IMG/VR virus record: IMGVR_UViG_3300044819_000097
Location: 1-26,555 of that record
Strand: one strand, 5' to 3'
DNA: 26,555 bases
Source of the DNA: a virus
Shown: positions 3,921-25,371 of the stretch, piece by piece
Position numbering within the stretch: the first letter of the stretch is position 1
Layout of the letters: every line of letters begins with the position of its first letter
Position numbers and translations under genes: made by a program
The notes under the pieces: model-generated
The model's input: only the letters and a program-made list of their open reading frames with translations
Database searches by the model: none
What the model was told of the DNA's origin: nothing

Positions 3921-6386
3921 TTAGTAAACCTGCCCGGTCGGGTTTGCCATCAGGAACCACGAGCCAGTTGATGTGCCCTGATTCATGATTGGCCCCGCCG
4001 TTGTCAACGTGCCGCTGCCGGGAGCCGTGTTCGTGTTCGAGCAGAATTCGCCGGTCACGCGGGCGAGTTTCGTGACATCGCACGGGATGTCGAAGCCGTA
4101 GGCGAGGATTGTGTCAGTCCCGGTTGGTGTTGTCCACCAGACCGACGAGCCGTCGAAGTAGTTTCCGCCGCCCGAATAGAACGCCACCGTGGCCGTAGCG
4201 TTGTAGCGTGCGATGCCGAAGTACATCCCGGTAAAGTGGCTTCCCGACACCCGAATGATATTGTTCGACCCTCCCGTGATGGTGAACGCAGCCGTAATGA
4301 CGAGGGCATAGACATTCGTCAGGTTCGCTGCCGTGCCGTTGAGGCTGGCAGCAATGTTGGCGACGCCGTTGAGGTACAGATTGGTAAAATTGGCGTTGCT
4401 TATAGTCCCGCTGTTCTGGTACACAAGGACGCCGTTGCTCGCAGTCGAAGGCTGCGCGTAGCCATCCTCTACCGTCAGGTTTGTAATAGTCCCGGCGTTA
4501 TAAATGTAGCGCGAATTGCTGGGGTTCCACTTGAAATGCCGCACGACAAGATTGTCGATAACGAATCCCGTCTGGACCGCGAAAACATCCTGCGTCGCGG
4601 TATTACCCCCGTTGATCCAGTTCGAGGACACGTTTTCCAGGATGAGGCTCTGCACCGTCATTGGACCCGTCGCGTATGCGCCGTTGTTAGTCGTGTTGAT
4701 GGTGGCGTTTTTGATTATTATGGTTCCGGCAGTAGATGGCACCGACGGGGTACCCACAAGACGAAAGGCCGAGTAAGTGCCGCCGCCTAGCGTGTCTGTA
4801 GCTATGCCGTCCACAATGACGTTATCCATGTACAGATTGGAAACGGTCGCGTAGATCGAGAACGCGGCAGCGTGCCCGGAAATGTTGGAAATCTTGATAT
4901 TTATGAGGTCCTGGGTGTCCATCACGACGGTAGAGTAGGCGGATGGCTCCCCGGTCTGAACTGAGATTTCGCCGTTGCTGTCTGTGTAAGAGTCTACGCC
5001 GTCAATTACCCCATCAAATGAGCCATAGACTTTTAGAAGATCGCCATGGGTCCAGGTCTTTGCCGAGAGTCGCGAGAAGCGAAATGTGTTAAGCCCGCTG
5101 ACTACCAGGCCGTAGCCATCCGCCTGCGGAAAGGCGATGTTATCGACTGTGACACGCGCCGCCGACACCAGGATGATAGTTTCCCTTGCGAGTTGATTGA
5201 CGGGTGTAGCGTTCCCCGGTTCGTTAAAATCGAGAGCGCCGCCCCCACTGATTTCGATGTCATGGTCGGCTGCTTTCATGTTCATTGGGATGCCCGAAAA
5301 GGCCGCGCCCGGAGCACGCTTTAGAATCACGGTGATGTAATTCGCGTCGTTTACCCCGTAGACCTGGAAAGTGCCAAAGTACGCACTGTCACATGGCCCG
5401 CCCCGTGTATGCGCTGTCTGCCCCCCAGACCAATAGTTAGTCGATCCGTTGTCAGGCTGCGGATTGATCGTAACCCAGTCGTTTGCCGCTAGCCCGCTGT
5501 TGGGGTAGTAGACCGTGGCAAAGGTGCCATACGTAGGGTACCCGGTACTGACTGTGACGTAATACCAGGAGCATGTGTTATCCGTAATCGCTGCGCCTGT
5601 CGTGCCGGTTGGGCCGGTCGAAGTACCCGCGCTTCCACTAGGCCCGCCCGAACCAGCGGATGTGCAACTGGTCGCGTTCTGCCAATAGATGTTGCCATTC
5701 GCCACAACGTAATTACCTTTCGCGTAAGACGTTGACGCTACCCAAGCGGGCGTGCTCAAGCCCCAGATCACCGCCTGAGGGCCGGTGGCAATCGCTCCGC
5801 TGTTGTTGTATTCCGTAGTCCATGGAGACAACCAGGCGTTATTCTGGATGACGTTGGCATACGTCCCTGCGACGTGTTCAAGGTGGCAGGCTGTGGTCAC
5901 TTCCAGGTGAGTGTTAGAGCCGATATTCAGCGCGGCGTTGAGCCACACGATTGAGGTTGAGGTGGATGCTATGACGACACTCGCACCAACGTCTCCGCTG
6001 GCGAAGGTGTAAACGCCGTAGCCGTTGCTGCTGTACTGTCCCGTGGTGGGGCCTGACGCCACCCTGCTAAGTGCCGCGCCGCCCACCGCATAGGTCACAC
6101 CTGTATCCCGTAGGAAAAACGGCCCGGAGTTGGCAACAGAGATTTGATAGGGAGCCGCCGGAATCGTATCCGTTTCGGTATTTATCGCCGGTGGGCAGTC
6201 GATCAGGACATGACCGCCTGCTGTCAGCACCGCCTGAATGGAGGTCGTGTTTGCCGTGGCCGCGCCGCTGCTGTTATAGGCGATGCCGTTGACCGTCGTC
6301 GCGTTGCCCCCCGGCGCGGCCGGAATAGAAGAGACCTGCGCGCCCGCCGCGAGCGCGAACGCAAAGAGAAATGCGAGGCGCGTCAC
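3921..6386 (-). CDS. tailspike / beta-helix depolymerase-like protein with signal peptide
   Basis: The 821-residue product probably forms the host-binding or polysaccharide-degrading tailspike. GTG 6386-6384 overlaps the upstream TGA as GTGA, and the first 17 residues (TRLAFLFAFALAAGAQ) look like a Sec signal peptide; a longer upstream extension is only antisense shadow. Residues about 215-270 hold a carbohydrate-binding-like module (ASTSYAKGNYVVANGNIYW, then AITDNTCSWYYV). From about 370 to 700 come many short beta-strand coils (HDIEISGGGALDF, VTVDNIAFPQADGYGLVVSG, HGDLLKVYGSFDGVIDGVDS), the pattern of pectate-lyase or GH28-like right-handed beta-helices. Catalytic residues cannot be fixed by eye. 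The gene is clearly less GC-rich than its neighbours, a sign of transfer. Confidence 0.75.
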   Translation of the reverse strand: MTRLAFLFAFALAAGAQVSSIPAAPGGNATTVNGIAYNSSGAATANTTSIQAVLTAGGHVLIDCPPAINTETDTIPAAPYQISVANSGPFFLRDTGVTYAVGGAALSRVASGPTTGQYSSNGYGVYTFASGDVGASVVIASTSTSIVWLNAALNIGSNTHLEVTTACHLEHVAGTYANVIQNNAWLSPWTTEYNNSGAIATGPQAVIWGLSTPAWVASTSYAKGNYVVANGNIYWQNATSCTSAGSGGPSGSAGTSTGPTGTTGAAITDNTCSWYYVTVSTGYPTYGTFATVYYPNSGLAANDWVTINPQPDNGSTNYWSGGQTAHTRGGPCDSAYFGTFQVYGVNDANYITVILKRAPGAAFSGIPMNMKAADHDIEISGGGALDFNEPGNATPVNQLARETIILVSAARVTVDNIAFPQADGYGLVVSGLNTFRFSRLSAKTWTHGDLLKVYGSFDGVIDGVDSYTDSNGEISVQTGEPSAYSTVVMDTQDLINIKISNISGHAAAFSIYATVSNLYMDNVIVDGIATDTLGGGTYSAFRLVGTPSVPSTAGTIIIKNATINTTNNGAYATGPMTVQSLILENVSSNWINGGNTATQDVFAVQTGFVIDNLVVRHFKWNPSNSRYIYNAGTITNLTVEDGYAQPSTASNGVLVYQNSGTISNANFTNLYLNGVANIAASLNGTAANLTNVYALVITAAFTITGGSNNIIRVSGSHFTGMYFGIARYNATATVAFYSGGGNYFDGSSVWWTTPTGTDTILAYGFDIPCDVTKLARVTGEFCSNTNTAPGSGTLTTAGPIMNQGTSTGSWFLMANPTGQVY

Positions 6387-6799
6387 TGGCGGAACGCTCC
6401 GGAGAACGTAAGGCCCGCGCCGGACGCGAGCGCGGTGAACCCGCCCGGCGCCCAATACAGGCGAAGATCGGGCCACGAAATGATGTACGTCGTGTTCGCG
6501 GCAATCGATACCGCCGGCGCGACGCATACGGGCGAGGCCTGGCGGTCGCAGAGCGAAAACGAAATCGCGGACGCGGTCGGGTTTTCGACCGTGATAACCT
6601 TCAAAAACGCGTCCGACGCCGACACAACCGTGGTGCTTGTCGGGACCGCCTGCGGTTTGATCTGGACATCGCCGTTGCCCGTGCCCGGCTGGCAGATCGG
6701 AATTGTCGCGGTATTACAAGTATTGAGCTGCGCGAACGCGGGCGCGCCGAGCACGCACGCGGCGAGAAAAAGACCGGTCAGGGCCTTGAGGTTTTTCAT
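6383..6799 (-). CDS. putative secreted or virion tail-appendage protein, 138 aa
   Basis: This protein starts with a clear Sec signal peptide (MKNLKALTGLFLAACVLG, cleavage expected after AFA before QLN) and continues as a Thr/Ser/Ala-rich beta domain with paired cysteines (residues about 27-38 and near 80-90). It ends in a GLTFSGAFRQ block typical of compact beta-sandwich appendage proteins. ATG 6799 follows AAGGAAAAAAC. It is coupled to the tailspike gene by a GTGA overlap, so the two products are probably made together. No named family; a tail or baseplate decoration is the best guess from context. Confidence 0.65.
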   Translation of the reverse strand: MKNLKALTGLFLAACVLGAPAFAQLNTCNTATIPICQPGTGNGDVQIKPQAVPTSTTVVSASDAFLKVITVENPTASAISFSLCDRQASPVCVAPAVSIAANTTYIISWPDLRLYWAPGGFTALASGAGLTFSGAFRQ

Positions 6800-6814
6800 G
6801 TTTTTTCCTTGGGT

Positions 6815-7507
6815 TTAGTGCCCGATGCTGTTAATCGACTGCAGCCAGACCGCGTTGCCCGCCGTCGCCGCGCTGAACGTGAACGTGATCGATAGGACCT
6901 GCGCCGCGTTCGTCGCGACCGCCACGGACGGCGTCGTCGGCGTGATGAGCGCGTTTCGCAGGGACGACGGGGCGAAAGGTGTCGCCGAGCAGCTGGCGAT
7001 CACAGGCGCGCTCGCCGATGCCGCGGACGGCGCGACGATCTGGCAATAAACGCCGTTGCCGCTCATGACACTGGTAGGCATCAGCGCGGAAGGGCCTGTA
7101 AGAATCGGGGTCGATCCCAGCTTCACAGTGATCATCAGGCTGGGGGGAGATGAGCTGTCCACGCTCCCAAACGCGAAGCTGAACGGCAGCACCGAACCGG
7201 CCAGCGTTCCGGCCGGGATCGTGACTGTCGTCGTAAACGCGGTTGCGCTCGTCGCGCTCGTCGCCTGGCACGTGATGCCCGTGATGCTCGTATCGCCGCC
7301 GAGCGCGCAGATCGCGTCCGCCGTCGTCGCGAGCAGCGCGTTTTTAAAAGCGCCCGCCGCGTTCGCGTTCGCGATGGCGACGTTGGCGTTGAGCGTCGCG
7401 AGATTCGCGCCCGTGAACACGCCCGCGTTGTCGGGCAGCGGCGCCTGCAGCAGCTGCGTCTGCGCGCCGAGCGTGCACGCAAGTGCGAAGAATAAAAGCG
7501 TTTTCAT
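6815..7507 (-). CDS. putative tail-appendage protein with signal peptide, 230 aa
   Basis: A short N-terminal signal peptide (MKTLLFFALACTLGAQ) precedes an Ala/Asn-rich helical stretch (about 25-62) and a long Ser/Thr/Val-rich beta region to the end. The composition is that of a phage fibre or jelly-roll appendage. ATG 7507 follows AAAGGAAACCA, and the gene lies 9 bases after the collagen-repeat gene, so both are in one transcript. Family not recognised. Confidence 0.65.
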   Translation of the reverse strand: MKTLLFFALACTLGAQTQLLQAPLPDNAGVFTGANLATLNANVAIANANAAGAFKNALLATTADAICALGGDTSITGITCQATSATSATAFTTTVTIPAGTLAGSVLPFSFAFGSVDSSSPPSLMITVKLGSTPILTGPSALMPTSVMSGNGVYCQIVAPSAASASAPVIASCSATPFAPSSLRNALITPTTPSVAVATNAAQVLSITFTFSAATAGNAVWLQSINSIGH

Positions 7508-7516
7508 TGGTTTCCT

Positions 7517-8329
7517 TTAAGGAGTGAAGTCTGCGATCACCACGACGTCGGCCGTGGCCGTGACCCCCTGTGGCGTGGTCAGGCTGAGGTACAGCGGACT
7601 TTCCGCGAGGTTCAGCGCGTTCGTCGTCGCGACCGACGTGAGCGTCGCGCTCAGAAAAAGCGATGGCGTCGTCAGCGCGGAGTACGCCTGCGTCGCGGCG
7701 ACAATCGCGAAGCCGCCCTTCGCGGTCGCGGTGTAAATCCCGCCCACCGCGGTCGTAAGCGCCACCGACGCGTTCGTGACGATGATCCGCCGGATCACGT
7801 AATGCGTGAAGCCCGCGGGGAAGTTGATCGTGATCGCCTGGTCGCTCGTGCCGTTGAAGTTCGCGCCCGCGAGGTAGCCCGCCGGCACGCCGTTCACGCC
7901 GTTCGCGCCCGCCGCCCCCGTGGGGCCCGCCGCGCCCGTGGCGCCGACGCTACCCGTCGCGCCCGCGGGTCCGGTCGGACCGGAGGCCGCGCAGATCCCG
8001 TCCTGGCTCCAGATGGTAGCGCCAAGAGCGGAAGCCAGCACGAACTTGTAACACGTCGTTTTCAGGAAAATTCCGCTGGTGGACAGGCCAGCGGAATTAA
8101 GCGTGATGACGGTTGGGTTTGTTGCGACTCCCGCGCTGCTCGAATAAGTCGAAAGAGGGGTAGAAGTTCCAGCTGCGTAGGTGGACAAAGTGCAGCCCAC
8201 ACAGGGTAAAACCGTGCCGGTGGCAACGTCAAAAAATTGAATATTGGGAGGCGGTGTGGGGTACGCCTGAGCCCATGCCTGGACCGAGGCAATGAGTGCC
8301 ACGAGTAGTACTCTAGACCTTGTAAACAT
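7517..8329 (-). CDS. tail fibre-like protein with collagen-type repeats and signal peptide
   Basis: The 270-residue protein has a Sec-like signal sequence (RVLLVALIASVQAWAQA, residues 6-22), a beta domain to about residue 115, eleven Gly-X-Y triplets (117-149: GPT GPA GAT and so on) and a C-terminal beta domain (about 155-270) ending VVVIADFTP. Collagen-like stalks trimerise and are common in phage tail fibres. The start codon ATG 8329 lies inside the 15-base block shared by the endonuclease cassettes, so the first residues MFTR may have come with that cassette. AAGGA occurs upstream but is about 17 bases away. Confidence 0.7.
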   Translation of the reverse strand: MFTRSRVLLVALIASVQAWAQAYPTPPPNIQFFDVATGTVLPCVGCTLSTYAAGTSTPLSTYSSSAGVATNPTVITLNSAGLSTSGIFLKTTCYKFVLASALGATIWSQDGICAASGPTGPAGATGSVGATGAAGPTGAAGANGVNGVPAGYLAGANFNGTSDQAITINFPAGFTHYVIRRIIVTNASVALTTAVGGIYTATAKGGFAIVAATQAYSALTTPSLFLSATLTSVATTNALNLAESPLYLSLTTPQGVTATADVVVIADFTP

Positions 8330-8344
8330 TGGCTTTTAGGCGCA
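8318..8344. repeat. shared endonuclease 5' block, copy 1
   Basis: CCTTGTAAACATTGG (8318-8332), then 8 bases, then CGCA (8341-8344), 12 bases before the start of the first endonuclease. The same layout precedes the other two endonuclease genes. On the minus strand it holds the ATG of the tail fibre-like gene (MFTR). Confidence 0.75.
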
Positions 8345-8356
8345 TCCTTGTGTTAG

Positions 8357-9214
8357 ATGAATTGGGTAATTTACGTTCTGAAATGCCCTCGAACGCGCGA
8401 AGTCCGGTATGTGGGGTTCACATCCACAAGCCCACAAAAAAGGCTGCGTTGCCACATCAACGACGCTGTGAATCGTCCGCATGAGACCTACCGGCAGCGA
8501 TGGATTATGTCCCTTGTCAGCATCGGCCTGGAACCGCTGCTTGAAGTGGTCGAATCTGGATCGGGCGACGATTGGGAAGAAGCCGAACGCCGATGGATCG
8601 CTTACTACAGGGCGAGCGGAGCGCGTCTCGCGAACGGAACCATAGGCGGAGAAGGAGTTGTCGGATGGGGAACGCCCGAACAACGGAGCGCCAGAGCGAG
8701 AACGCGTATAGCCAATACCACTCACGAGCAACGAAGCGAAGCAATAAAGAAATGGCACGCCAGCAGAACTCCTGAGCAGAGGCGCGCGACCGTGGAGAAG
8801 ATCCGTGCGACTAAAGGACCGGCGCAGGAAACTCGACGCCTGACGCCGAAAGAGCGCAGCGAAGCGGTGAAAAACGCGTGGGCCAAGATGACTCCCGAAC
8901 AGCGTGCCGCCTCGGTAAAGGAACGATTCGGAATGACGCCGGAGAGGCATCGCGCAGCCCGTCAGAAGCAAATCGCCGGAACAACAGGCGCGCAGCGCAG
9001 CGAAGCCGCCCGCAAAGGGCGCGCGTCTCTGACGCCGGAACATCGAAGCGAGATAGGCCGCAAGGCGGCGGCCAGCATGACGCCGGAACAACGAACGGAA
9101 CACGCGCGACTCGGCGGGCGCGCCTCGAAAACCACGATGACACGTGAGCAATGCGTCGCCGCCGGGAAGAAGGCCCGTGCTACGTTCCTGGCTCGCCGCG
9201 CCGCTTCCGCGTAG
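8357..9214 (+). CDS. GIY-YIG homing endonuclease 1, with 16-residue repeat tail
   Basis: A stand-alone homing endonuclease of 285 residues. The degenerate GIY-YIG motif is VIYVLK (4-9) and RYVGFT (17-22), followed by R29/H33, a likely catalytic Glu in EAERRWIAYYR (E77) and ARLANGTIGGEG (N93). From residue about 104 to the end there are roughly ten copies of a 16-residue unit (consensus TPEQRSEAxRKxxAxM), resembling NUMOD3-type DNA-binding modules. It lies on the plus strand against the structural operon, head to head with the fibre-like gene (27 bases between starts). No clear ribosome-binding site. The 3' end appears to cut a small gene fragment at 9215-9292. Confidence 0.88.
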   Translation: MNWVIYVLKCPRTREVRYVGFTSTSPQKRLRCHINDAVNRPHETYRQRWIMSLVSIGLEPLLEVVESGSGDDWEEAERRWIAYYRASGARLANGTIGGEGVVGWGTPEQRSARARTRIANTTHEQRSEAIKKWHASRTPEQRRATVEKIRATKGPAQETRRLTPKERSEAVKNAWAKMTPEQRAASVKERFGMTPERHRAARQKQIAGTTGAQRSEAARKGRASLTPEHRSEIGRKAAASMTPEQRTEHARLGGRASKTTMTREQCVAAGKKARATFLARRAASA

Positions 9215-9292
9215 AAACTCTTCAGCGCTCATCTCATCGAACGCGTCGGGAATCGGATCGCGCGGCCAGTCGCGCGGCAGCGTGAAGTCTAG
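9215..9292 (-). pseudogene. fragment of a small gene, apparently cut by endonuclease 1
   Basis: The minus-strand frame here reads LDFTLPRDWPRD, then IPDAFDEMSAEEF, and then enters the antisense of the endonuclease at its stop codon. It resembles the C-terminus of the neighbouring 73-residue protein (WPYPMDEFDTTTAEDFLG). It has no start codon of its own in a likely place and lies one frame off that protein, just after its stop. It could be a duplicated tail, a frameshifted extension or the remains of a gene broken by the insertion. Confidence 0.45.
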
Positions 9293-9510
9293 CGGTCCGG
9301 ACCGAGGAAGTCTTCCGCCGTCGTCGTGTCGAATTCGTCCATCGGGTAAGGCCACTGCGGCGACTGCGCCGCTTCCTTCAACTCCGCTACACGCGCGGCC
9401 TGGCGCGCCGCTTCCACAGCGCGCCGCTGTTCGATCTGCTCCGCGCGTTTCGACCCGAACGGGTACATGTAACGCAGCGTGAAGAATTTCATCGCTCCGC
9501 ATTGTGCCAT
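9289..9510 (-). CDS. small hypothetical virion-operon protein, 73 aa
   Basis: The protein begins MAQCGAMKFFTLRYMYPFGS, followed by an Arg/Glu/Ala-rich helix (KRAEQIEQRRAVEAARQAAR) and an acidic C-terminus ending DTTTAEDFLGPDR. A second ATG at 9492 (MKFF) is an alternative start, close to a GGAG. The gene lies 33 bases after the 535-residue gene. No family recognised; it may be a small tail or ejection accessory protein. The acidic tail is repeated in another frame just downstream. Confidence 0.55.
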   Translation of the reverse strand: MAQCGAMKFFTLRYMYPFGSKRAEQIEQRRAVEAARQAARVAELKEAAQSPQWPYPMDEFDTTTAEDFLGPDR

Positions 9511-9543
9511 CCGGCGCGGGCGAATTCAAGAGTCTCAGTACTG

Positions 9544-11151: not shown

Positions 11152-12740
11152 TATTTAATTCGCTTTTCCTGGCCGCTTGCGTCCAGCGTCCAGACCTGGC
11201 CGTTGCTGAATGTCGTGTCGATGCCCTTCTTGAGCTGCGCTTTCGCGGCGTCCGGAAGCGCGCCCGTCTGCGTCGCGTTGCCCGCGCCGCCGAACGAATA
11301 CGCGTGCGTCTCGTCCTTCACGTTGTTCAGGTTCGACGACATCGCATTAAGCGAGCCGTTAATGAGCGCGGGCGCCATCTTCGGGTTCGCCGTCACGCCG
11401 GAAAGCTGATCGAATAACTGCGCCGCCGGTCTGCCGCCGAGAAGGCCCTTGCCTTCAAGCAGCTTCAGATAGGCGAAGTTGGTACGCAGTTCCTGCTCTT
11501 TTGCGGCCTGCGGCGTACCCTGCCCGAAGAACGTATCCCCCACCTTCTGCTCGACATTCCCGAGGCGTCCCGAAATCGCGCCAACCGACCCCGCAATATC
11601 GGGGTCGCTCATCAGTTCGCGGATTCTCCCGATAGCCTTCAGCCCGAGGTCGGCCGAAACCGCGCGCGTTTTGAGATCTCCGGGCACCTGCACCGGAACG
11701 TTGAGCCCCTGCGCCACCAGGTCGTGCGCGACCGAAACCTTCATTTCGGGCGAAAGCGAGAAGTACGAATCGGGATCCCGTTTGACCGATTCGGTGAACG
11801 CGGCGCGCGACGAGGGGTCGCCGTACTTCGCCGTGAATTCCTTCGACCGGAGATTCTGCTCAGCCTGCTTTACACTCAGCTCGCCCATGGAGATCTTGTT
11901 CTTCGCGACATCCTCCGCGCCGAGGCCTCCGTGCGCGGCCTTGAAGTCCGCGTCGAGTTTCGCGATCGCGGCGTCCGCCTGGAGCTTCGGCAGATTCGCC
12001 TGCGCGTTGATCTTGTCCTGAACGAGCTTGTCCGCGTCGGCCGCGAACTGCAGCGCGTGCGCTTTGTTCAGCGCTTCGGCCGAAGCATCGGTTTTGACCT
12101 TCTGGACCGCTTCCTGCGCTTTCGTCGAGTACGCGTTCAGCCCTTCGACAAACCGGTTTTTCACCGCGAACGCGTTCCCGTCGTCCCAGTTCGTGATCGC
12201 CGGAACGTTCTCGGGTTTGAGGTTCTTATCCTGAACGAGCTGCGCGAACGCGGCAGGAGCAAGGCGCGCCACGTCGGCGTCGCTGCGCTTCTTTCCCGTC
12301 TCGTCGTAGAGAATGCCGTTCAGCGTGTCGCCGATCTGCGCGTGCATCGCATCGTTCAGCTTGCGCTGTTCGCCGGTGGCCACGGCCGCGTTCTTCTGCT
12401 GCTCGGTGATGGATTTCGCGAGCGTGTCCTGAAATCCGGGCGAGATTTTCCCCGCCAGCGGGAAAGCCGTCGTGCCGTCCCACTGCGCGAGGGCTTTCGC
12501 GTTGTTCGGATCTTTCAGAAACTCCCGCGTCGTGTTCTGGTCCGCCAGATCGCGCCGTTTCTGATCCGCCTGTGCCTGGTAGTTCTGCTGTTCTGCTGCG
12601 GACGTAGCCATCTGTTGCTGACGAAGCTGGTTCTCCACCGCCGCGCCGCGCAGCTGCGAAAGCTGCGCGAGCGTCGCGAGCGGGTTCGGCGGGGGCGCGG
12701 CGGGATTAACCGAAAGCGCGATTTGCGGATCTATGGCCAT
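11151..12740 (-). CDS. putative DNA ejection / internal virion protein, 529 aa
   Basis: This long, helical, Gln/Ala/Lys-rich soluble protein starts MAIDPQIALSVNPAAPPPNP, with a coiled-coil region (LRQQQMATSAAEQQNYQAQADQ, about 38-62) and many further amphipathic helices. Its C-terminal part contains AKEQELRTNFAYLKLLEGKG and ends TLDASGQEKRIK. The size, composition and position between the 282- and 535-residue genes match the middle ejection protein of P22-like phages. ATG 12740 overlaps the stop of the preceding gene by 10 bases. Family named by context, not by a diagnostic motif. Confidence 0.65.
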   Translation of the reverse strand: MAIDPQIALSVNPAAPPPNPLATLAQLSQLRGAAVENQLRQQQMATSAAEQQNYQAQADQKRRDLADQNTTREFLKDPNNAKALAQWDGTTAFPLAGKISPGFQDTLAKSITEQQKNAAVATGEQRKLNDAMHAQIGDTLNGILYDETGKKRSDADVARLAPAAFAQLVQDKNLKPENVPAITNWDDGNAFAVKNRFVEGLNAYSTKAQEAVQKVKTDASAEALNKAHALQFAADADKLVQDKINAQANLPKLQADAAIAKLDADFKAAHGGLGAEDVAKNKISMGELSVKQAEQNLRSKEFTAKYGDPSSRAAFTESVKRDPDSYFSLSPEMKVSVAHDLVAQGLNVPVQVPGDLKTRAVSADLGLKAIGRIRELMSDPDIAGSVGAISGRLGNVEQKVGDTFFGQGTPQAAKEQELRTNFAYLKLLEGKGLLGGRPAAQLFDQLSGVTANPKMAPALINGSLNAMSSNLNNVKDETHAYSFGGAGNATQTGALPDAAKAQLKKGIDTTFSNGQVWTLDASGQEKRIK

Positions 12741-13579
12741 GTTTCCTCGCCCGTGATCGGGTTGATCGTCGGATTATCGGCGGTAATCGGTCCGAACCCG
12801 TTGGGGTTCTGGTTCCCTTGCCCCGCGTTGAGCTGGGCGAGGAAATTCTGCGTCTGGATGCCGTTCGAAATCGCGCCCGTGGCGTTGGTAATGCCGCCCG
12901 TGATCGCGTTCGTCGAGCCCACGATTCCAGAGGCCTGCGCGTTGCCAATCTGGCCCAGCGTGTTCCCGATCGTCGACGCCGCCTGCGCGCCCGTCGCGCC
13001 CGCGTTCGCCGCCGCGCTCTCGCCGAGCTGCACGGGCGCGAAAAGCTGATTGAACGCCTGCTGCTGCGCCTGCCCTTTGGTCTGGTAGGACGAGAGCGCC
13101 GCGCCGTACGAACTCAGCGCGTTATTGAAAATCTGGTTATACGTCGTGTCCGCGAGGTTCGAGTCGTAAGCGGTGAGCGCCTTCAGCGTGCCGCCCGTGA
13201 CCGCGCCGCCGGCCGCTGCCGCGCCGCGCTCGATCCCCTGCTCGCCCTGCTCCTGAGTGAACTGATAACCAGGCGTGTTGCGCGCGTCCGCGAGAGTCGG
13301 AGCCGTGAACGTCGGCACGGGTCCGAGTGACCCCGCGCCGAACGTCCCGTTCGAAAGGTCCGCCATCAGCGTTGCGAGCGACGACTGGCCACCCTGGATG
13401 AACGGCGCCTGGTTCGCCTTCTGGTCGCTGTACTCCTGCTGCTGGAACTGGAGCGCCTTCTCCTCTTCCGCGACCTGCGCCTGCGACGCCTTCGTCGCCG
13501 CGTTCGATCCGAAGATGCTCGATATGATCGAGCCGCCCGCGCCGATCAGCCCCGCCGTCAGTAGTCCGCCAAACGGCAT
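12731..13579 (-). CDS. putative DNA ejection protein (P22 gp7 position), 282 aa
   Basis: The N-terminus MPFGGLLTAGLIGAGGSIIS is a Gly/Ala/Ile-rich hydrophobic segment, followed by an AATKASQAQVAEEEKALQ helix and a long Gln/Ala/Gly/Asn-rich region with NALSSYGAALSSYQTKGQAQ. Proteins of this build are usual in podovirus ejectosomes, where a short hydrophobic N-terminus and an amphipathic body allow exit through the portal and insertion in the host envelope. The gene starts directly after the acetyltransferase stop. Functional call is from build and gene order. Confidence 0.65.
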   Translation of the reverse strand: MPFGGLLTAGLIGAGGSIISSIFGSNAATKASQAQVAEEEKALQFQQQEYSDQKANQAPFIQGGQSSLATLMADLSNGTFGAGSLGPVPTFTAPTLADARNTPGYQFTQEQGEQGIERGAAAAGGAVTGGTLKALTAYDSNLADTTYNQIFNNALSSYGAALSSYQTKGQAQQQAFNQLFAPVQLGESAAANAGATGAQAASTIGNTLGQIGNAQASGIVGSTNAITGGITNATGAISNGIQTQNFLAQLNAGQGNQNPNGFGPITADNPTINPITGEETWP

Positions 13580-14002
13580 TTAATGTGTCCTCATTTCGAT
13601 GGCGCCCACCGCCGCGAACGTCGCGCGGATCGCGTGATTGTCGGTGCGCAGCTCCGCGTACGTCCACTCGTAGCCCTGCTCTTTCAGCGCGTCCGCCACG
13701 AGCGCGAGAAAGCGCTTCCCGTGCCCGCGCCCGCGATGTTCGCGCGCGATGACCATCCCGCAGTACTGCCCGCCGTTTATCAAAGCGCCCGGCGTATGCG
13801 GCGTGAATCCGAGGAACCCGATTACCCTACCGTCGAGCACGGCGCCAAACGTTTGCCCCGCCGTGTTCTTTTCATCGAGCAGCGCGATTACAGCCCCGTA
13901 ATCGGAGGTCTCGGCGTCCGCGAAGTGCGCCTCGCGCGGGTCGTTGAGCCACGCATGCAGCGCGGGCGCGCAGCGGCGCGGAAAGGGAGAGACCAGTGTC
14001 AT
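13580..14002 (-). CDS. GNAT-family N-acetyltransferase
   Basis: The 140-residue protein shows the GNAT fold order: an N-terminal strand-helix part (ALHAWLNDPREAHFADAE), central strands (FGAVLDGRVIGFLGFTPH), the acetyl-CoA-binding motif A in YCGMVIAREHRGRGHGKRFL (R-G-R-G-H-G, about 87-95) and a C-terminal ELRTDNHAIRATFAAVGAIE motif B. It would transfer acetyl from acetyl-CoA to an amine; the target is unknown. ATG 14002 was chosen because upstream codons only shadow the gap; the ribosome-binding site is weak. Its place between the fibre-like and ejection genes is odd and suggests acetylation of a virion or host surface component, which is inference. Confidence 0.85.
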   Translation of the reverse strand: MTLVSPFPRRCAPALHAWLNDPREAHFADAETSDYGAVIALLDEKNTAGQTFGAVLDGRVIGFLGFTPHTPGALINGGQYCGMVIAREHRGRGHGKRFLALVADALKEQGYEWTYAELRTDNHAIRATFAAVGAIEMRTH

Positions 14003-14031
14003 TGAGTTTTTTCTTTCGGAATCGCGCGAAA

Positions 14032-15276: not shown

Positions 15277-16818
15277 TTAAGAGCCGCCCGCGCGGATCGC
15301 GTGCGTCGCGCCCACCAGCGCCGCGAATACCGGGTCCGTGATCCGGATCCAGATCGCGCCGTCGCGATACGAGCCCAGCCGGAACGCGCGCACGCGGTGC
15401 CCGTAATCGCCGCCCGCGCCGAGCGTGAGCGAGTACTCGCGCCCCCACGTCTTGCCGCCGTCGCGCGAAATGCGCAGCAGCAGCACGGGCGCGCTGCCCT
15501 GGCCCGTATCGAGCCCCACGCCGGTCTGAACGATGAATTCCAGCGCGTCGAGGATCTGCCTTAAATTGCCGTTCCACGGCAGCCGCACGATGCGGTCGCG
15601 CGTGATCGGGAAACCGGGGAAGCTCGCGGACGGGTTCGGAGCGTCGTAATAACAGGACGCGTCCATCTGGTAGAGCACGCCCGGCGCGCCGTCCGCGCCG
15701 CCGCTGCCGACGATATGTTTCCCGTACGCGTAACAGTGATCGCGCTCGAGCGTCGCGTGCGTGGCGCCGTTCGCGTCCGTAAACGTGTCCTTCGTCCAGG
15801 CCGAATAGCCCGCGCGGTCGCTCTCGGTCGAGTCGTAAACCCACGCCTCATCCGCGGCAGGGAAAATCCACTTGATGAAGTTGTGGCCGTTCCAGATATA
15901 CGAGTACGTGATGCAGTCCGCGACAGTCGGGTAAACCGTGCCCTTCGCGGGGTCTTTGTTCGCCCACGCGGCTTCGAGCGCATGGGTTGAGATGCGCCGC
16001 GTAATGAGTCCTTCGCTGCGCACGGCCGACAGCCCGCCGCGCTTCGACTGATCGAGCCAGTAGAGCGAATTGTTCGACTGACAGAGCGACGCGTTCGCGC
16101 CGATGCCGTCTTCGATAAACGCGCCGGGCTCGATCGTGAACGGGAAGCCCGCGTTGCCGCTGTTGTACCAGATCTCCGAGCGTTCGCCGCCCAGCAGGTA
16201 CAGATACTCCTTGTCCGCGATGATCGCCTGCAGCCGGTCCGCCTGCCCCAGCGTGCCCGATACATCGAGCGCGTTCCACGTCAAACCGGTCGGGTCCGCG
16301 AAGCTCGAAATCTGGAACTGGCTGAGCGCGATCTGCAGCGCCACAAAGTACCCGTCGATCCACGTGATCGCGTCCGCGCCGAGGAAGTTGTCGCCGATCG
16401 CGACCTGGGTGAAAACGCCGCCCGAATAGATGTAAAGCTGGCCGCCCGAGCAGATCGCGAGCGAGCCGTTATTGTCGTCGACAGTCGGCTTTGAGCCGCA
16501 CATCGTGACCGGTTTCCCGTCGTCCACGATCGTGCCGAACGAGTTCAGCGCGCCTGCCGTGATGGCGCAGAACTGCGTACCGTTGACGCAGTACGCGATG
16601 CCGTTATACGTGATCTTGCCGCGCGGGCGCCCCGCGACTTCGGGCGGGTTTTGCCCGTAGGAATTCAGCCCGGGGCGGTTGATGAGAATTGGACCTTCGC
16701 CTTTCGCGAGGCCTGGCACTTCGGCGCTTTCGAGGTAGTAATTCTGCGTCAGCGCGATCGCGAACGCGCTCGCCTCGCTCGCGTACGACGCCCCGCAAAA
16801 ACCCTTGTATGGCTCCAC
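15277..16818 (-). CDS. gp10-like packaged DNA stabilisation / tail hub protein
   Basis: The 513-residue product matches the P22 gp10 family, which forms the hub under the gp4 ring and keeps packaged DNA inside. Signature blocks are INRPGLNSYG, GERSEIWYNSGNAGFPF, IEPGAFIEDGIGANASLCQS, LYWLDQSKRGG and ITRRISTHALEAA, all typical of this family's beta-propeller-like core; the C-terminal third has RISRDGGKTWGREYSLTLGA. P22 gp10 is 472 residues, so the length fits. GTG 16818 is the start, with only weak ribosome binding. It lies 14 bases after a gp4-like gene, as in P22. Confidence 0.82.
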   Translation of the reverse strand: MEPYKGFCGASYASEASAFAIALTQNYYLESAEVPGLAKGEGPILINRPGLNSYGQNPPEVAGRPRGKITYNGIAYCVNGTQFCAITAGALNSFGTIVDDGKPVTMCGSKPTVDDNNGSLAICSGGQLYIYSGGVFTQVAIGDNFLGADAITWIDGYFVALQIALSQFQISSFADPTGLTWNALDVSGTLGQADRLQAIIADKEYLYLLGGERSEIWYNSGNAGFPFTIEPGAFIEDGIGANASLCQSNNSLYWLDQSKRGGLSAVRSEGLITRRISTHALEAAWANKDPAKGTVYPTVADCITYSYIWNGHNFIKWIFPAADEAWVYDSTESDRAGYSAWTKDTFTDANGATHATLERDHCYAYGKHIVGSGGADGAPGVLYQMDASCYYDAPNPSASFPGFPITRDRIVRLPWNGNLRQILDALEFIVQTGVGLDTGQGSAPVLLLRISRDGGKTWGREYSLTLGAGGDYGHRVRAFRLGSYRDGAIWIRITDPVFAALVGATHAIRAGGS

Positions 16819-16832
16819 CTATGGCTCGCCGA

Positions 16833-17597
16833 TCATAGTTCACCAATCAACGTCAGATTGCCGCTGTTCGTCCCGCCGGTCGGACGCGTCTGGAAATCGC
16901 TGTACGCTTTCGGATTGCCCGCGTTCGCGTTCTTCACGCGCTGCCGGGCTTTCAGCGCCCATCCCGCAATTTTCGGGTTGAGCTTGCCCATCTCCTTCGT
17001 GCAGAGGTACTGGCAGCGTTCCGCGAGCGTGTAGACGATGCAGTTCTCGTAGCCCGGCGCGAACGTGCCGGCGACGACGGTTGCGAGCGTGGCGGGCGCC
17101 ACGAGCGCGCCGTTCTGCCAGAACTCGATCGAGTTGGCGTTGATCGGTGGCCACAGGTGCAGCACGCCGTTCGGGAAAAGCGCTTCGTAGTAGCCAGTCG
17201 TCGCGACCTGGGACGAGGGCAGGGTGAGCACGGAAATGTTGCCGTACTCTTCCCAGGACACCAGATCGATGGGCACGCGGGAGTTCACGGCTGTCGTCGT
17301 GAAAATCAGGTTTGCTTTGAGCAGCTTCACGGGCCGCGGCTGCACCCAGTCGGCCGCACTGGGGCCAATCTGATAGTCGCGATGGTTGCCGTTGAAGCCC
17401 GGGCCGGTGATGGCGTGCGTGTATTCCGGCTTCGTGAGCGGCATGTTCCGGTCGAGGTTGAATTCGTCGATCAGCGCCTGCCATTCCGCCAATACGTCCG
17501 CCTGTAATTCGGCCCCTGCTGTATACCCTGGTCTTAGCTGGCAAGCATGGCGCAACACCCTAAAATTTATGTAGTCCGCTGCTGTGCTGAGGGCCAC
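16833..17597 (-). CDS. gp4-like tail accessory protein (second copy)
   Basis: The 254-residue protein has the layout of the P22 gp4 tail-adaptor family: an N-terminal helix with LAEWQALIDEFNLDRN, an early ITGPGFNGNHRDYQIGP turn that parallels the YxIG element, a central strand block with RPVKLLKANLIF, LVSWEEYGNI, ALFPNGVLHLWPPI, and a C-terminal helix pair (FAPGYENCIVYTLAERCQYL). GTG 17597-17595 has GGAGG seven bases upstream and overlaps the stop of a short leader frame encoding MFTRFKSIVPEVK. It looks like a paralogue of the 332-residue protein across endonuclease 2. Confidence 0.65.
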   Translation of the reverse strand: MALSTAADYINFRVLRHACQLRPGYTAGAELQADVLAEWQALIDEFNLDRNMPLTKPEYTHAITGPGFNGNHRDYQIGPSAADWVQPRPVKLLKANLIFTTTAVNSRVPIDLVSWEEYGNISVLTLPSSQVATTGYYEALFPNGVLHLWPPINANSIEFWQNGALVAPATLATVVAGTFAPGYENCIVYTLAERCQYLCTKEMGKLNPKIAGWALKARQRVKNANAGNPKAYSDFQTRPTGGTNSGNLTLIGEL

Positions 17598-17638
17598 TAT
17601 TTGACCTCCGGTACTATGCTTTTGAACCTTGTAAACAT
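17597..17638 (-). other. short leader frame MFTRFKSIVPEVK upstream of gp4-like gene
   Basis: A 13-codon minus-strand frame starts at the ATG in the shared endonuclease block and stops at TAG overlapping the GTG start of the next gene (TAGTG). A near-identical start of peptide occurs before the portal gene. No clear ribosome-binding site precedes it, so translation is unproven. Confidence 0.35.
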
Positions 17639-17653
17639 TGGGTTTCTACCGCA
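17618..17653. repeat. shared endonuclease 5' block, copy 2
   Basis: The core CCTTGTAAACATTGG (17627-17641) is followed after 8 bases by CGCA (17650-17653), 15 bases before the endonuclease start. The match to copy 3 extends left to GCTTTTGAA, giving 24 of 25 identical bases (17618-17642 against 25324-25348). Confidence 0.75.
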
Positions 17654-17668
17654 TTCTGGAATTTCCCG

Positions 17669-18457
17669 ATGCACTGGTTTATCTACGTTCTGAAAAATCC
17701 ACGGACGCAGGAAGTCCGCTACGTAGGTAAGACCGGAATCAGCGCAGAAACGCGCTTGGGCCAACATGTGACGGAAGCAATCAGAACGCAGAAAAGCTAC
17801 CGGAACAGAGGGATTCTTTCTCTCGTGAGCATCGGCCTTATTCCTCTCATCGAAGTCATTGAAACCGGAAGCGGGCACGGATGGGGAGAGAGCGAAAAAC
17901 GATGGATTCGTTTCTACCGAGAGCGCGGTGCGCGACTGTGGAATACGGGACACGGCGGCGAAGGAAACATCGTGGGGTTCGGAACGCCCGAACGGCGCAG
18001 CAAAGCCGTGAAGCAAGGGAACGCCAAACGCACTCCCGAACAACGTAAAGCTATGGCTGAAAGGTGCAGGCTTCTCACTGCTGCCCGGACCTCGCAACAA
18101 ACAAGCGAGATGATTAAGCGCGCGTGGGCCAGCGCCACTCCCGAAGAGCGCGTCGCCCGTATTCAAAGTGCAGGAGACGCGCAGCGCGCCCTTAGTCCAG
18201 CGCAGCGCAGCGCGAACGCTAAAAAAGCAAATGCCGCACGAACTGCGGAAGAACGGCGCGACGCGAGACGGAATCAGATCGCCAACACGACCCACGAACA
18301 ACGAAGTGCGTCCGCCAGAAAAGGCGTCGCGAGAATGACCAGCGAAGCGCTCAGCGCGTCGCGGATGAAAATATGGGAAGCCAAGACTCCCGAACAGCGA
18401 AGCGACGCTCGCACGAAAGGCTGGGAAACCCGCCGCGCCCGCGCTGCCGCGAAATAG
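17669..18457 (+). CDS. GIY-YIG homing endonuclease 2, with 16-residue repeat tail
   Basis: This 262-residue stand-alone endonuclease has FIYVLKNPRT (4-13) and VRYVGKTG (16-23) as its GIY-YIG motif, then a conserved ESEKRWIRFYRERGARLWN and GGEGNIVG. About nine 16-residue repeats follow (TPEQRKAMAERC, SPAQRSANAKKANAAR, THEQRSASARKGVARM and so on). It is inserted against the operon between two gp4-like genes. Its TAG stop (18455-18457) is 5 bases from the stop of the neighbouring gene, so the insertion is very compact. It likely cuts phage genomes lacking the insertion and so spreads by repair; that is family knowledge. Confidence 0.88.
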   Translation: MHWFIYVLKNPRTQEVRYVGKTGISAETRLGQHVTEAIRTQKSYRNRGILSLVSIGLIPLIEVIETGSGHGWGESEKRWIRFYRERGARLWNTGHGGEGNIVGFGTPERRSKAVKQGNAKRTPEQRKAMAERCRLLTAARTSQQTSEMIKRAWASATPEERVARIQSAGDAQRALSPAQRSANAKKANAARTAEERRDARRNQIANTTHEQRSASARKGVARMTSEALSASRMKIWEAKTPEQRSDARTKGWETRRARAAAK

Positions 18458-18462
18458 TCTGA

Positions 18463-19461
18463 TCACCGCTGCCCCTGCTGCTGCTGTTGCTGCGCGGCCG
18501 CCTCGCGCTGCTGGTTCTCGGTCGGCGGCGCGAGCGATGGATCGAGCAATCTGTTCATGACGTTCAGGCGTTTGACTCTGTCTTTCGCCGTGACGCCCAG
18601 CTGGGTCACAATCTGCGCGGTCGCCTGGTTCACACTCGCGCCGTAGCGCGGCAGACACCGGAACGCGAGCGCCTGCACGATGGCGTCCTGATACCCGGGC
18701 GGCAGCGTCTGGTTGGTCCCGAGCGCGAACGCCTGAATCGCGTTCCACGTAATCAGCTCGATCTTCGTCGCGGTCGGACACGTCGCCACCGGAAACAGAT
18801 AAACCTGCATCAGCCCCGAGGCGTCCGCGTAATCGAAATACACCTCGTCCGGCGAGCTTGCGGTCGCGGAAAGGTCGTTATGCGCGAAGTAGGTCTTCTG
18901 GCTCACGATCTGCACCGGGTTGCGGTTCGTCCCCGACCCCACGGTCGAGACGATCGTTGCCCCGTCCACGCGCACCGGCCGCGAGACGTTCGCCAGCTGC
19001 CAGACGGGCGTGCCCGCGATCGCGCCGAAGCCCGTCGAGTTGACCGGGATCGAAAACGTCGTGCCGCTGACGTTCGTCGCGGCGAAGCAGCCGTTCGCCG
19101 GCGCCCAGTTGCCGGTAAACCCGGAAATATAAACCAGCGCGCCCGTGGGCGGCGCCGCCGGCGTCGTGAGCACCGCCGCGGCCGCGTCCGTAATCGCGCT
19201 GATCGTCGCGGACGCGCCCAGCAGCACCGCGCCCGTAAAGCCCGCCGCGATCGGTCCGAGCGCGTAGGGGTTCACGTTCGCGGCGAGCAGGTACTGCGCC
19301 ACCGCGACGCTCGGAATCAGCGTCTCGTCCGCGCTCCACGCGTCGGTCTGCTGATTGAGTTCGATGAGCAGGTCAGCGGATTCCGACGCCGACGGCGCGC
19401 CGCCCGCGTCGAGGATATTCAGGCTGGTGAGAGCCTGATTGATAATCTGCTGACCTGTCAT
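18463..19461 (-). CDS. gp4-like tail accessory protein with inserted domain
   Basis: The 332-residue product begins TGQQIINQALTSLNILDAGG, followed by PSASESADLLIELNQQTDAW, the classic N-terminus of the P22 gp4 family that binds the portal and starts the tail. A beta domain of about 60 residues is inserted (about 93-150: GALVYISGFTGNWAPANGCF, then ATNVSGTTFSI), resembling domains seen in several phage structural proteins. Later blocks (PDEVYFDYADASGLMQVYLF and TLPPGYQDAIVQALAFRCLP) fit the family. It ends in a glutamine run (QQQQQQGQR). ATG 19461 has AGGAACCCAAC upstream. P22 gp4 is 166 residues, so this is much enlarged. Confidence 0.75.
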   Translation of the reverse strand: MTGQQIINQALTSLNILDAGGAPSASESADLLIELNQQTDAWSADETLIPSVAVAQYLLAANVNPYALGPIAAGFTGAVLLGASATISAITDAAAAVLTTPAAPPTGALVYISGFTGNWAPANGCFAATNVSGTTFSIPVNSTGFGAIAGTPVWQLANVSRPVRVDGATIVSTVGSGTNRNPVQIVSQKTYFAHNDLSATASSPDEVYFDYADASGLMQVYLFPVATCPTATKIELITWNAIQAFALGTNQTLPPGYQDAIVQALAFRCLPRYGASVNQATAQIVTQLGVTAKDRVKRLNVMNRLLDPSLAPPTENQQREAAAQQQQQQGQR

Positions 19462-19470
19462 GTTGGGTTC

Positions 19471-19920
19471 CTACTTCTTTGCTTTTGCAGCGAGCGCTTC
19501 GACCTGCGCCGAGAGCTTTAGAATCAGGTCGTTCTGCGACGCGATCTTGCCCGCGGTTTCGGCGTCCTGCGCGACGCGTGCGGCCTTCTCGGCTGCCGGA
19601 TCGGCCGGCGCCACGCGAACCACGGGGAAATGCTCTTCGCGGAAGTTTTTCTTCTCCGCTTCAGCCTGTTCCTTCGGGTCAGCGACGGCGATCGTACGCC
19701 CGTCGGGGTGGTGCATGTGGCGCGGATACGGCTGATGCAAGTAGGGCGGGCGCGGGTCGTTTTTCTTCGGCCCGACGCCGCCATCGAGACGCGCCTTGCG
19801 GGCGTCTTCGATGTTCATGAGCTGCGCGCCGTTTTTCACGTGCGCATCGAACGTGGCCGAAAGCGATGCCGCCAGCCCGTCCAGGTTCCCGTCTTCGATT
19901 CCAATGACTGTTACGGCCAT
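19471..19920 (-). CDS. hypothetical head-operon protein, 149 aa
   Basis: The N-terminal half is compact (VTVIGIEDGNLDGLAASLSA), the middle is rich in His/Pro/Tyr (PPYLHQPYPRHMHHPDGR, about 58-75), and the C-terminal third is a long charged helix (AAEKAARVAQDAETAGKIAS, then LILKLSAQVEALAAKAKK) that could form a coiled coil. AAAGGACACAGAC precedes ATG 19920. The position between a head-decoration-like gene and the tail adaptor gene suggests a head-tail completion or decoration role. No family recognised. Confidence 0.65.
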   Translation of the reverse strand: MAVTVIGIEDGNLDGLAASLSATFDAHVKNGAQLMNIEDARKARLDGGVGPKKNDPRPPYLHQPYPRHMHHPDGRTIAVADPKEQAEAEKKNFREEHFPVVRVAPADPAAEKAARVAQDAETAGKIASQNDLILKLSAQVEALAAKAKK

Positions 19921-19944
19921 GTCTGTGTCCTTTATTGGCTGGTC

Positions 19945-20721
19945 TTACTGAGAAAGATCGAGCCAGGTGAGCGTGCTCGAAATCAGCGCGAGCTGCAGAT
20001 TCACCACGCCCGTCGAAACGTACGCGGTCGCGATGTTGTTCGCGGGGTTCTTTGCGCTCTTGATCGCGAGCGCGCTTCCGCCGGCATACGCGAACGTATT
20101 CGCGCCTGCCTGCAGGGCATGCGCCAGCGTTACCGATACGGTGATCCCGGTATAGGCAGGAGCGCTGCCCACCGCCGAGGTGATGGCGTTCGCCGCGCCC
20201 GCGTCGGTCACGAACTGAATCGGACCGGCCACCAGGTACTCGCGCCACACCGATGTGTTGGCGTCGCAGTCGAATTTCTTCCCGAGACCGGGATAGATGA
20301 TCGGCAGGTAGGTCTGCGACGTCCGCGTGCAGGTGCCCTGCGGAGTCGCCAGGTTGGCGCGCAGCGAGAATCCGTTCGCGCCGGGCACAACGGAATTAGG
20401 GGAGGTCAGCCCGATCCACACCTGCGCGCCGCTGGCGTGCGTAGTGGGGCCAGACCCCGCGCCGATGCCGCGCGCGACTTTCACCGAGCCCGCGAGCGTC
20501 GGAGTGCCGACGGTCTGCATCAGTTCGCCGTCGATATAGAGATAGGTCTGCCCGGCGGTTACATTCGCAATCGAGGCCAGATTGATTACGTTGGCAGTGG
20601 TGGAAGTGATCGCGGCGCCGAGCGTGGTCGAGGGCGTGGTGACCTGCGCCTCTGCCTGATTCACGAACGCGGACGCGAGCCCGATGACCGCGACGAGAGA
20701 GAGCTTCAGAATTTTATTCAT
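19945..20721 (-). CDS. putative head decoration protein with signal peptide, 258 aa
   Basis: The protein opens with a textbook signal peptide (MNKILKLSLVAVIGLASAFV, cleavage expected after AEA before QVTT) and continues as a Thr/Ala/Val-rich beta domain (ANVINLASIANVTAGQTYLY, IDGELMQT), with two cysteines near residues 133 and 153. ATG 20721 follows CCAAGGAAAAACATC, the same leader type as the 138-residue gene. Lying directly after the coat gene, it would normally be called a decoration or head fibre protein, but the signal peptide would send it to the periplasm or surface. Either it is a secreted phage protein or the signal serves another purpose. Confidence 0.6.
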   Translation of the reverse strand: MNKILKLSLVAVIGLASAFVNQAEAQVTTPSTTLGAAITSTTANVINLASIANVTAGQTYLYIDGELMQTVGTPTLAGSVKVARGIGAGSGPTTHASGAQVWIGLTSPNSVVPGANGFSLRANLATPQGTCTRTSQTYLPIIYPGLGKKFDCDANTSVWREYLVAGPIQFVTDAGAANAITSAVGSAPAYTGITVSVTLAHALQAGANTFAYAGGSALAIKSAKNPANNIATAYVSTGVVNLQLALISSTLTWLDLSQ

Positions 20722-20787
20722 GATGTTTTTCCTTGGGGTTTGGAGCGCGCACGGACGCGTTTCCGCGTCCGTGCGTCAGCGCCTGAA

Positions 20788-22005: not shown

Positions 22006-22040
22006 GTGGGGCTCCTTTTGAGGTGTGGTTTAGGAGTTCT

Positions 22041-22095
22041 GCCCGCGCGGCGTATGGTGTCGCCAATGCTGGGTTTCGGGTTGCGTCGCGCGGGC
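22041..22095. repeat. inverted repeat in scaffold-coat gap
   Basis: GCCCGCGCGGCG (22041-22052) pairs with CGTCGCGCGGGC (22084-22095) at 11 of 12 positions across a 31-base loop, and a smaller TTTCGGG / CCCGAAA pair (22074-22080, 22095-22101) overlaps it. It lies in the 124-base gap upstream of the coat gene and could affect the relative output of scaffold and coat. No T-run is present for a standard terminator. Confidence 0.4.
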
Positions 22096-22129
22096 CCGAA
22101 AGCCGACGCGTCGCGAAATAAGGCGCGTC

Positions 22130-25359: not shown

Positions 25360-25371
25360 ACATTGAACTTG

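Follow-up and report, generated by a model that had tools for sequence, protein, structure and literature searches.

Might a tailed phage send parts of its virion out of the cytoplasm? In the textbook view, the assembly of tailed phages takes place entirely in the cytoplasm, but five genes of the DNA stretch analyzed here (the window, 26,555 nucleotides in full), which is a fragment of a P22-like podovirus, i.e., a relative of Salmonella phage P22 that comes from soil, each encode from the given start a Sec signal peptide (SP) of canonical build, whose cut lies at the slash in [AG]/Q. All are encoded on the minus strand, and their N-termini read MTRLAFLFAFALAAGA followed by QVSS (tailspike-like gene starting at 6386), MKNLKALTGLFLAACVLGAPAFA followed by QLNT (138-aa gene, 6799), MKTLLFFALACTLGA followed by QTQL (230-aa gene, 7507), MFTRSRVLLVALIASVQAWA followed by QAYP (collagen-repeat gene, 8329), and MNKILKLSLVAVIGLASAFVNQAEA followed by QVTT (post-coat gene, 20721). 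The basic residue, hydrophobic stretch and Ala-X-Ala or Gly-Ala site before a Gln that the first-pass annotation had reported for these proteins are present in each of them, and four of the genes are indeed consecutive (8329 to 3921).

The SPs were evaluated with a home-made rule, which demands a positive n-region, an uncharged h-region of 7-17 residues, A, G or S at position -1 and a small residue at -3. All five proteins were called positive, exhibiting the n-, h- and c-regions and the AXA-type site of Sec/SPase I substrates, with cleavage in vivo being a prediction. The rule recovered 7/7 textbook E. coli signal peptides, while it called 29 of 5000 composition-matched random N-termini, 0 of 586 internal pseudo-starts and 2 of 461 genes outside the SP-bearing groups in related contigs and isolate regions, corresponding to a chance rate of about 0.5%. 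Five SPs among approximately 25 called genes are far beyond chance (binomial estimate < 1e-6 at a rate of 0.6%). The window DNA is GC-rich, and two-strand ORF calling yields long antisense ORFs masking real genes; gene calling for the SP survey was restricted by strand, and the 138-aa gene, masked by an overlapping longer frame in the window scan, was scored separately.

It appears extremely improbable that the starts are mis-annotated or the hydrophobic stretches fortuitous, with the true proteins starting downstream. Such an error would agree with the existence of SP-less relatives that begin downstream and with gene 8329, which shows no clear ribosome-binding site at its start. However, most members have a ribosome-binding site ahead of the SP start codon. 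AAGGA/AAAGGA motifs lie upstream of 20721, 7507 and 6799, and gene 6386 has a GTG start whose GTGA overlaps the preceding gene's stop, with a GGAG motif 10 nt upstream. Moreover, the SPs are kept over deep divergence and are linked to pairs of cysteines. Spurious starts or chance are rejected, and largely refuted, by the background rates and this deep conservation.

A view on the remaining structural genes of the window, which represent a P22-like morphogenesis module, shows that none of them carries an SP in the rule-based scan. These are the genes for the P22-type major coat protein, used as reference gene (20788..22005; phrog_283, 3e-36; PF11651, 3e-11), the portal protein (23043..25301; phrog_156, 4e-67), the scaffold (22130..23050; phrog_8865, 5e-9), the gp10-type head closure protein Hc3 (15277..16818; phrog_578, 3e-58) and the DNA ejection protein (12731..13579; phrog_598, 3e-24), all on the minus strand. 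SPs are likewise absent among their relatives (portal 0/64, scaffold 0/31, coat 0/62, Hc3 0/37, ejection 0/23) and those of a 149-aa protein (0/23) and a 254-aa adaptor (0/27). The window also encodes a 414-aa fibre-like protein without an SP.

The 258-aa post-coat protein consists of an SP of 25 aa called by the rule (20647..20721, minus strand) and a mature part (19945..20646) delimited from family alignment A3, which contains a Cys131/Cys152 pair and is a putative outer virion component, either decoration or fibre-like. In a comparison of 35 phages, including the source of the window, 23 members of this family carry the SP, whereas the other 12 begin close to the mature N-terminus. If the proteins reach an oxidising compartment, the SP-bearing members should have paired cysteines. 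Taken by itself, the window shows no significant Cys excess in the SP proteins (p = 0.06). Within the post-coat family, Cys accounts for 79 of 4177 residues in members with SP vs. 2 of 2585 in those without, although many SP-bearing rows are related and these raw values are non-independent, leaving only three contrasts. The Cys count is even in 22 of the 23 SP-bearing members and 0-1 in the SP-less ones; both cysteines of alignment columns 166/202 are present in 15 rows and a single one in none, while columns 39/55 are both occupied in 11 rows and singly in 2. On the well-supported coat tree, the SP state of the gene switches at least three times, with gains and losses being indistinguishable on this unrooted tree, and the presence of two or more Cys tracks the SP state in 3/3 independent contrasts. 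Relatives starting downstream of the hydrophobic part, regarded beforehand as counter-evidence to export, do exist, but they mostly form a separate and nearly cysteine-free branch, which shows the SP to be an option that has evolved rather than a spurious feature. The post-coat protein may serve as a capsid decoration protein, as judged from its position after the coat gene and an N-terminal beta domain resembling phage fibre domains in an AlphaFold model (pLDDT 70, good only in this domain); a search for relatives in isolate phages found none.

The second informative case is the 270-aa collagen-repeat protein, whose gene adjoins a homing endonuclease gene. Its SP of 20 aa, called by the rule (8270..8329, minus strand), is followed by a tailspike head-binding (virion-docking) domain with four Cys (7985..8269), assigned by tblastn, PDB profile matches and the Cys pattern, and by a collagen repeat and C-terminal part (7517..7984; Pfam Collagen, 9e-5, below the curated cut-off; PHROG tail-fibre matches). 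The head-binding domain matches isolate tailspikes (tblastn, to 6e-10), and profile A4, built from nine related domains, retrieved 9vyg/9vyh ("Tail spike protein," 6e-13) and 7eeq ("Tailspike head-binding domain," 3e-11) from the PDB. It starts at residue 21, directly after the SP, and becomes the extreme N-terminus only once the SP is cleaved. The SP-bearing head-binding domains (n = 10, including that of the window and one with an SP-like N-terminus missed by the rule) start at residues 15-32 and contain 2 or 4 Cys, an even number in 10/10, whereas the 15 SP-less ones start at residues 3-14 and contain 0-1 Cys. The domain predicts docking of the 270-aa protein on the virion connector.

The other SP proteins of the tail locus, all on the minus strand, are less easily placed. 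The 230-aa protein (6815..7507, SP residues 1-15) and the 138-aa protein (6383..6799, SP residues 1-23) each contain four Cys in two close pairs (67/80 and 155/173; 28/36 and 84/92), and their position suggests that they may be virion components; no relative was detected for either, the 230-aa protein having no PHROG or Pfam match and the search of viral contigs and isolate phages finding nothing for the 138-aa protein. At residues 12-15, the latter has a lipobox-like LAAC, which lies within the h-region, unusually early for a lipoprotein, and the A/Q site at 23/24 fits better. The 821-aa tailspike-like protein (3921..6386, SP residues 1-16 by rule call, GTG start) has an odd number of Cys (7), matches only an unnamed family in the PHROG/Pfam search and shows no recognized head-binding domain.

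The main rival to docking after export, which we consider possible but rather unlikely, is that the proteins are exported and stay free of the virion, acting as secreted depolymerases or adhesins that loosen exopolysaccharide, aid the exit of progeny, or block receptors and superinfection, with the virion lacking them or having another spike. Bacteria do export tailspike-like enzymes and fibre-like trimers with a signal peptide, as known for Pantoea WceF (PMC7949094) and the Bdellovibrio MAT fibres (PMC10769870), although these are bacterial genes unconnected to a virion, and WceF uses the Tat route. The tailspike and the two small proteins of the window are also devoid of a recognized docking domain, and the SP-less 414-aa protein might be another receptor binder. 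However, the SP-bearing spikes retain a head-binding domain matching solved docking domains and isolate tailspikes, which would be superfluous in an enzyme acting entirely off the virion and which is expected if an exported spike still joins the virion.

There are two further readings. An uncleaved hydrophobic N-terminus serving as anchor in the membrane, as in signal-anchor-release (SAR) endolysins, or in the virion, as also considered in the first-pass annotation, is improbable: phage export signals of the SAR type are known (PMC6116005), but the SPs diverge in sequence while keeping the n/h/c pattern and a mostly [AG]/Q cut, and the SP-less relatives start at about this cut. Host-modifying envelope proteins from the tail region have a precedent in the lambda outer membrane protein Lom, which has an SP and whose gene lies between tail genes (PMC12309495). 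Such a role outside the virion is quite improbable here, since the proteins, among which a docking and a fibre-like domain occur, look like spikes and fibres of phages, and the post-coat homologue of sister phages is wholly without an SP.

Sec export of the SP-bearing proteins is well supported at the sequence level, because two independent families have the SP as an N-terminal addition before a domain that starts at Met elsewhere, with Cys pairs tracking the SP; this bears out export among the three readings that the first-pass annotation offered, i.e., export with late addition to virions, secreted enzymes, or a hydrophobic anchor. We consider it slightly better than an even bet that these are genuine cleavable Sec SPs and belong to those parts of a P22-like virion that lie outermost and are added last, and that these parts would be exported and then docked on finished particles. 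The cytoplasm would remain the usual site of synthesis and assembly for heads, connectors and ejection proteins, while the tailspike, the fibres encoded at its locus and the post-coat protein would cross the membrane through the Sec system of the host, lose their SP at [AG]/Q, and fold with disulfide formation in the periplasm. Docking would follow when lysis mixes the compartments, or just outside the cell. P22 particles that lack tailspikes can receive them in vitro as a final step. The sequences show the SPs, which are conserved in character and not in sequence, their absence from early assembly proteins, a head-binding domain immediately after an SP, and the pairing of cysteines; the steps that we infer are translocation, cleavage, disulfide formation and docking at or after lysis. 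The chances seem even that a group of tailed dsDNA phages of soil bacteria builds its virions in two compartments, with DNA-filled heads and connectors formed in the cytoplasm and Sec-exported, disulfide-stabilized spikes, fibres and head decorations joined to them only at lysis.

Virion proteins with cleavable Sec signals that leave the cytoplasm before assembly are known from the coat proteins pIII and pVIII of filamentous phages, which are ssDNA phages extruded through the membrane and not tailed dsDNA phages whose heads form in the cytoplasm. P22-type tailspikes (PBR31, P26218, PDB 7eeq and 9vyg) share the docking domain and a spike gene that follows the ejection genes in a P22-like module, but have no SP, start the domain at residues 3-14 with 0-1 Cys in it, and are assembled from the cytoplasm. 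Exported endolysins (Lys44 of fOg44 and SAR endolysins; PMC6116005) likewise use the host Sec system via an N-terminal signal during infection, but are lysis enzymes rather than virion parts. The literature on tailed phages, as far as covered, contains exported endolysins and Lom; a spike or decoration protein with an SP was not found in it.

If two-compartment building holds true, it would represent an extracytoplasmic maturation step new to Caudoviricetes. Spikes exported first would be outside the cytoplasm before lysis, their chemistry would include disulfides, which are rare in the cytoplasm, and the order of assembly would change such that lysis completes virions instead of merely freeing them. 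SP-bearing spikes may also help to recognize phages of soil phyla that are poorly cultured, and may need periplasmic expression for folding.

An Acidobacteriota bacterium is the probable host, with moderate evidence from one co-binned circular contig and the analogy with the Tunturi phages. The contig (41.6 kb, apparently circular gene order) encodes a coat relative (42%) and was binned with a Bryobacteraceae MAG; it appears to be a whole circular phage and not an integrated prophage, which makes it weak host evidence. The Acidobacteriota genome G206 carries a P22-like phage whose head-binding protein lacks an SP, indicating that the feature is not universal in this phylum. Tunturi 1 and 2, cultured phages of Tunturiibacter (PMC11924767), make the export idea testable now. 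They are different, larger phages (63 kb), and a head-binding domain of the type found in the 270-aa protein was not detected in them. Cleavage at the predicted sites would leave spike and fibre chains of Tunturi 1 beginning with QTTG, QWMT and QTCT. Like the phage described here, these two are podoviruses; they infect Acidobacteriota and carry SPs, unmentioned in the paper (PMC11924767), on five tail-locus genes, most of which encode Cys-rich proteins and which include the annotated tail spike/pectin lyase and a virion structural protein.

The minus strand of this 26.6-kb IMG/VR fragment carries a P22-like morphogenesis module, consisting of portal, scaffold, P22-type coat, a 258-aa protein encoded after coat, adaptors, Hc3, a fibre-like protein, ejection proteins and the tailspike locus. 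The Sec-type signal peptides (SPs) attributed to five of its proteins in the first-pass annotation were all present as described. A home-made rule (positive n-region, uncharged h-region, A/G/S at -1 and a small residue at -3), which recovered all seven textbook E. coli signals used as a check, picks the genes starting at 20721, 8329, 7507, 6799 and 6386, and no other structural gene in the window. Artefacts are a less likely explanation of these N-termini, the background of the rule being 29 of 5000 random N-termini, none of 586 internal pseudo-starts and 2 of 461 genes in other contigs and isolates. The tailspike gene (6386) starts with GTG, overlapping the preceding stop, with GGAG ten bases upstream.

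Coat-based searches yielded 80 related contigs. Besides the post-coat protein, the SP-bearing products in related contigs are spikes, collagen proteins and small partners from the tailspike locus, often encoded by runs of adjoining genes and present also in contigs whose post-coat protein lacks an SP. No SP was found in related phages on portal (0/64), scaffold (0/31), coat (0/62), the 149-aa protein (0/23), the 254-aa adaptor (0/27), Hc3 (0/37) or ejection proteins (0/23). As judged from the sequences, the split tracks assembly order, the last-added and outermost parts being the putatively exported ones. An SP-bearing family of 161-169 aa with several Cys (IATTGNVSLSGAATAATLQQPA...) recurs in several related phages, encoded close to the spike or immediately after it (L100:9962-10471, L119:13185-13670, L111:18886-19371 and 5322-5831 of the reverse strand of L125), and an otherwise SP-free P22-like contig contains two adjoining SP-bearing genes without Cys (291 and 120 aa; L059:4129-5380).

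The post-coat protein was compared in 35 phages including the window, taking as the next gene a 258-aa homologue or a positional counterpart sharing the N-terminal pattern; membership of the most divergent rows, e.g., L013, L067, L069 and L070, is less certain. An SP is present in 23 of the 35, whereas the other 12 have a Met start near the would-be mature N-terminus (MANTITQTTVSG... versus ...AFAQTATPSTTLCAA... in SP-bearing members). The coat tree, with 23 of its 32 inner branches starred, implies at least three changes of SP state, one example being the sisters L035 (SP) and L025 (none). The presence of at least two Cys goes with the SP state in all three independent contrasts, which are too few for a sign test (p 0.25; n=3 can never give significance), and the weight therefore rests on Cys pairing. 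In a 27-row alignment of mature proteins, Cys accounts for 79 of 4177 residues with SP versus 2 of 2585 without (the rows being related), and appears and disappears in pairs: columns 166/202 both contain Cys in 15 rows and a single one in none, columns 39/55 both in 11 and a single one in 2 (the window has neither), and columns 103/107, 237/293 and 310/353 likewise tend to co-occur. The number is even in 22 of 23 SP-bearing members. This pattern reads as the footprint of disulfides, which would place folding outside the reducing cytoplasm, and it does not depend on the signal as such. The predicted structure has an N-terminal domain like phage fibre domains, which fits an outer part but is no proof of capsid decoration. 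Two adjoining tail proteins of 796 and 783 aa (L008:1332-6282 and contig L103 (G003)) are paralogues with near-identical SPs (MKKALLAVFL[SA]GTAFGA...); the C-terminal 90 residues of the second are common with the 258-aa protein of the window, suggesting a C-terminal module moving between exported phage proteins.

The head-binding domain family says the same in its sequences. Tailspikes of isolate phages (Xanthomonas phage PBR31, 1e-9, Rhodoferax phage P26218 and others) have an N-terminal domain that matches residues 20-115 of the collagen protein (270 aa; 8329), and a search with a profile of this domain retrieved 9vyg and 9vyh (tail spike protein) and 7eeq (tailspike head-binding domain) at 6e-13 to 3e-11. 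Among the open frames compared (truncated overlapping fragments and one weak match, L117, being omitted), the domain begins at residue 15-32 in ten SP-bearing copies, all with an even number of Cys (2 or 4) and including L023, whose SP-like N-terminus the rule missed, versus residue 3-14 in 15 SP-less copies with 0 or 1 Cys. Because this domain docks the spike on the virion, the finding's main puzzle is why an export signal should precede it.

Export and oxidative folding of the SP-bearing proteins are well supported by these sequence patterns. The exported proteins may afterwards dock on finished particles, as suggested by the retained head-binding domain and by outer parts known to bind such particles: Dec attaches to finished P22 particles, and the P22 tailspike can bind them as well. 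The main rival, release as free secreted enzymes or adhesins, has bacterial analogues in Pantoea WceF (PMC7949094) and Bdellovibrio MAT fibres (PMC10769870). Less likely, the hydrophobic N-termini may serve as membrane or virion anchors, or the products may be Lom-like envelope proteins. No tailed phage with an SP on a spike or decoration was encountered in an incomplete search of the literature. Filamentous phage coats are known users of Sec. The same is known of phage endolysins (PMC6116005).

A 41.6-kb phage contig whose gene order is apparently circular encodes a coat relative and shares its bin with a Bryobacteraceae (Acidobacteriota) MAG; its spike and neighbouring proteins bear SPs. Of 41 SPs predicted in contigs sampled from this MAG, 17 likewise contain [AGS]Q (an uncontrolled count). 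Independently, SPs occur on five tail-locus genes of Tunturi 1 and 2 (PMC11924767), cultured podoviruses of Acidobacteriota; a virion structural protein and the gene annotated as tail spike/pectin lyase are among them. These phages represent a ready laboratory system for such genes, which are located at L166:10371-23028 and L167:9802-22744 and encode as many as 34 Cys in a single protein. Signal peptides are not mentioned in the main text of the Tunturi paper (PMC11924767). No SPs were found among the genes examined in Tunturi 3 and 4. One Acidobacteriota genome encodes a head-binding protein without SP, so the feature is not universal.

Interspersed between the structural genes, all on the opposite (plus) strand, are three GIY-YIG-type homing endonuclease-like genes with TPEQR-type repeats (8357-9214, 17669-18457 and 25363-26055), the one tested of the three matching PF01541; one of them neighbours the gene for the 270-aa protein, which is without a clear ribosome-binding site. 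A GNAT-like acetyltransferase gene (about 13580-13970, minus strand) lies between the fibre-like and ejection genes, and acetyltransferases are annotated at similar positions in PBR31 and the Tunturi phages. An open frame of 973 aa (19630-22551, plus strand) runs antisense to the coat and post-coat genes and probably arises artefactually from GC-rich codon use.
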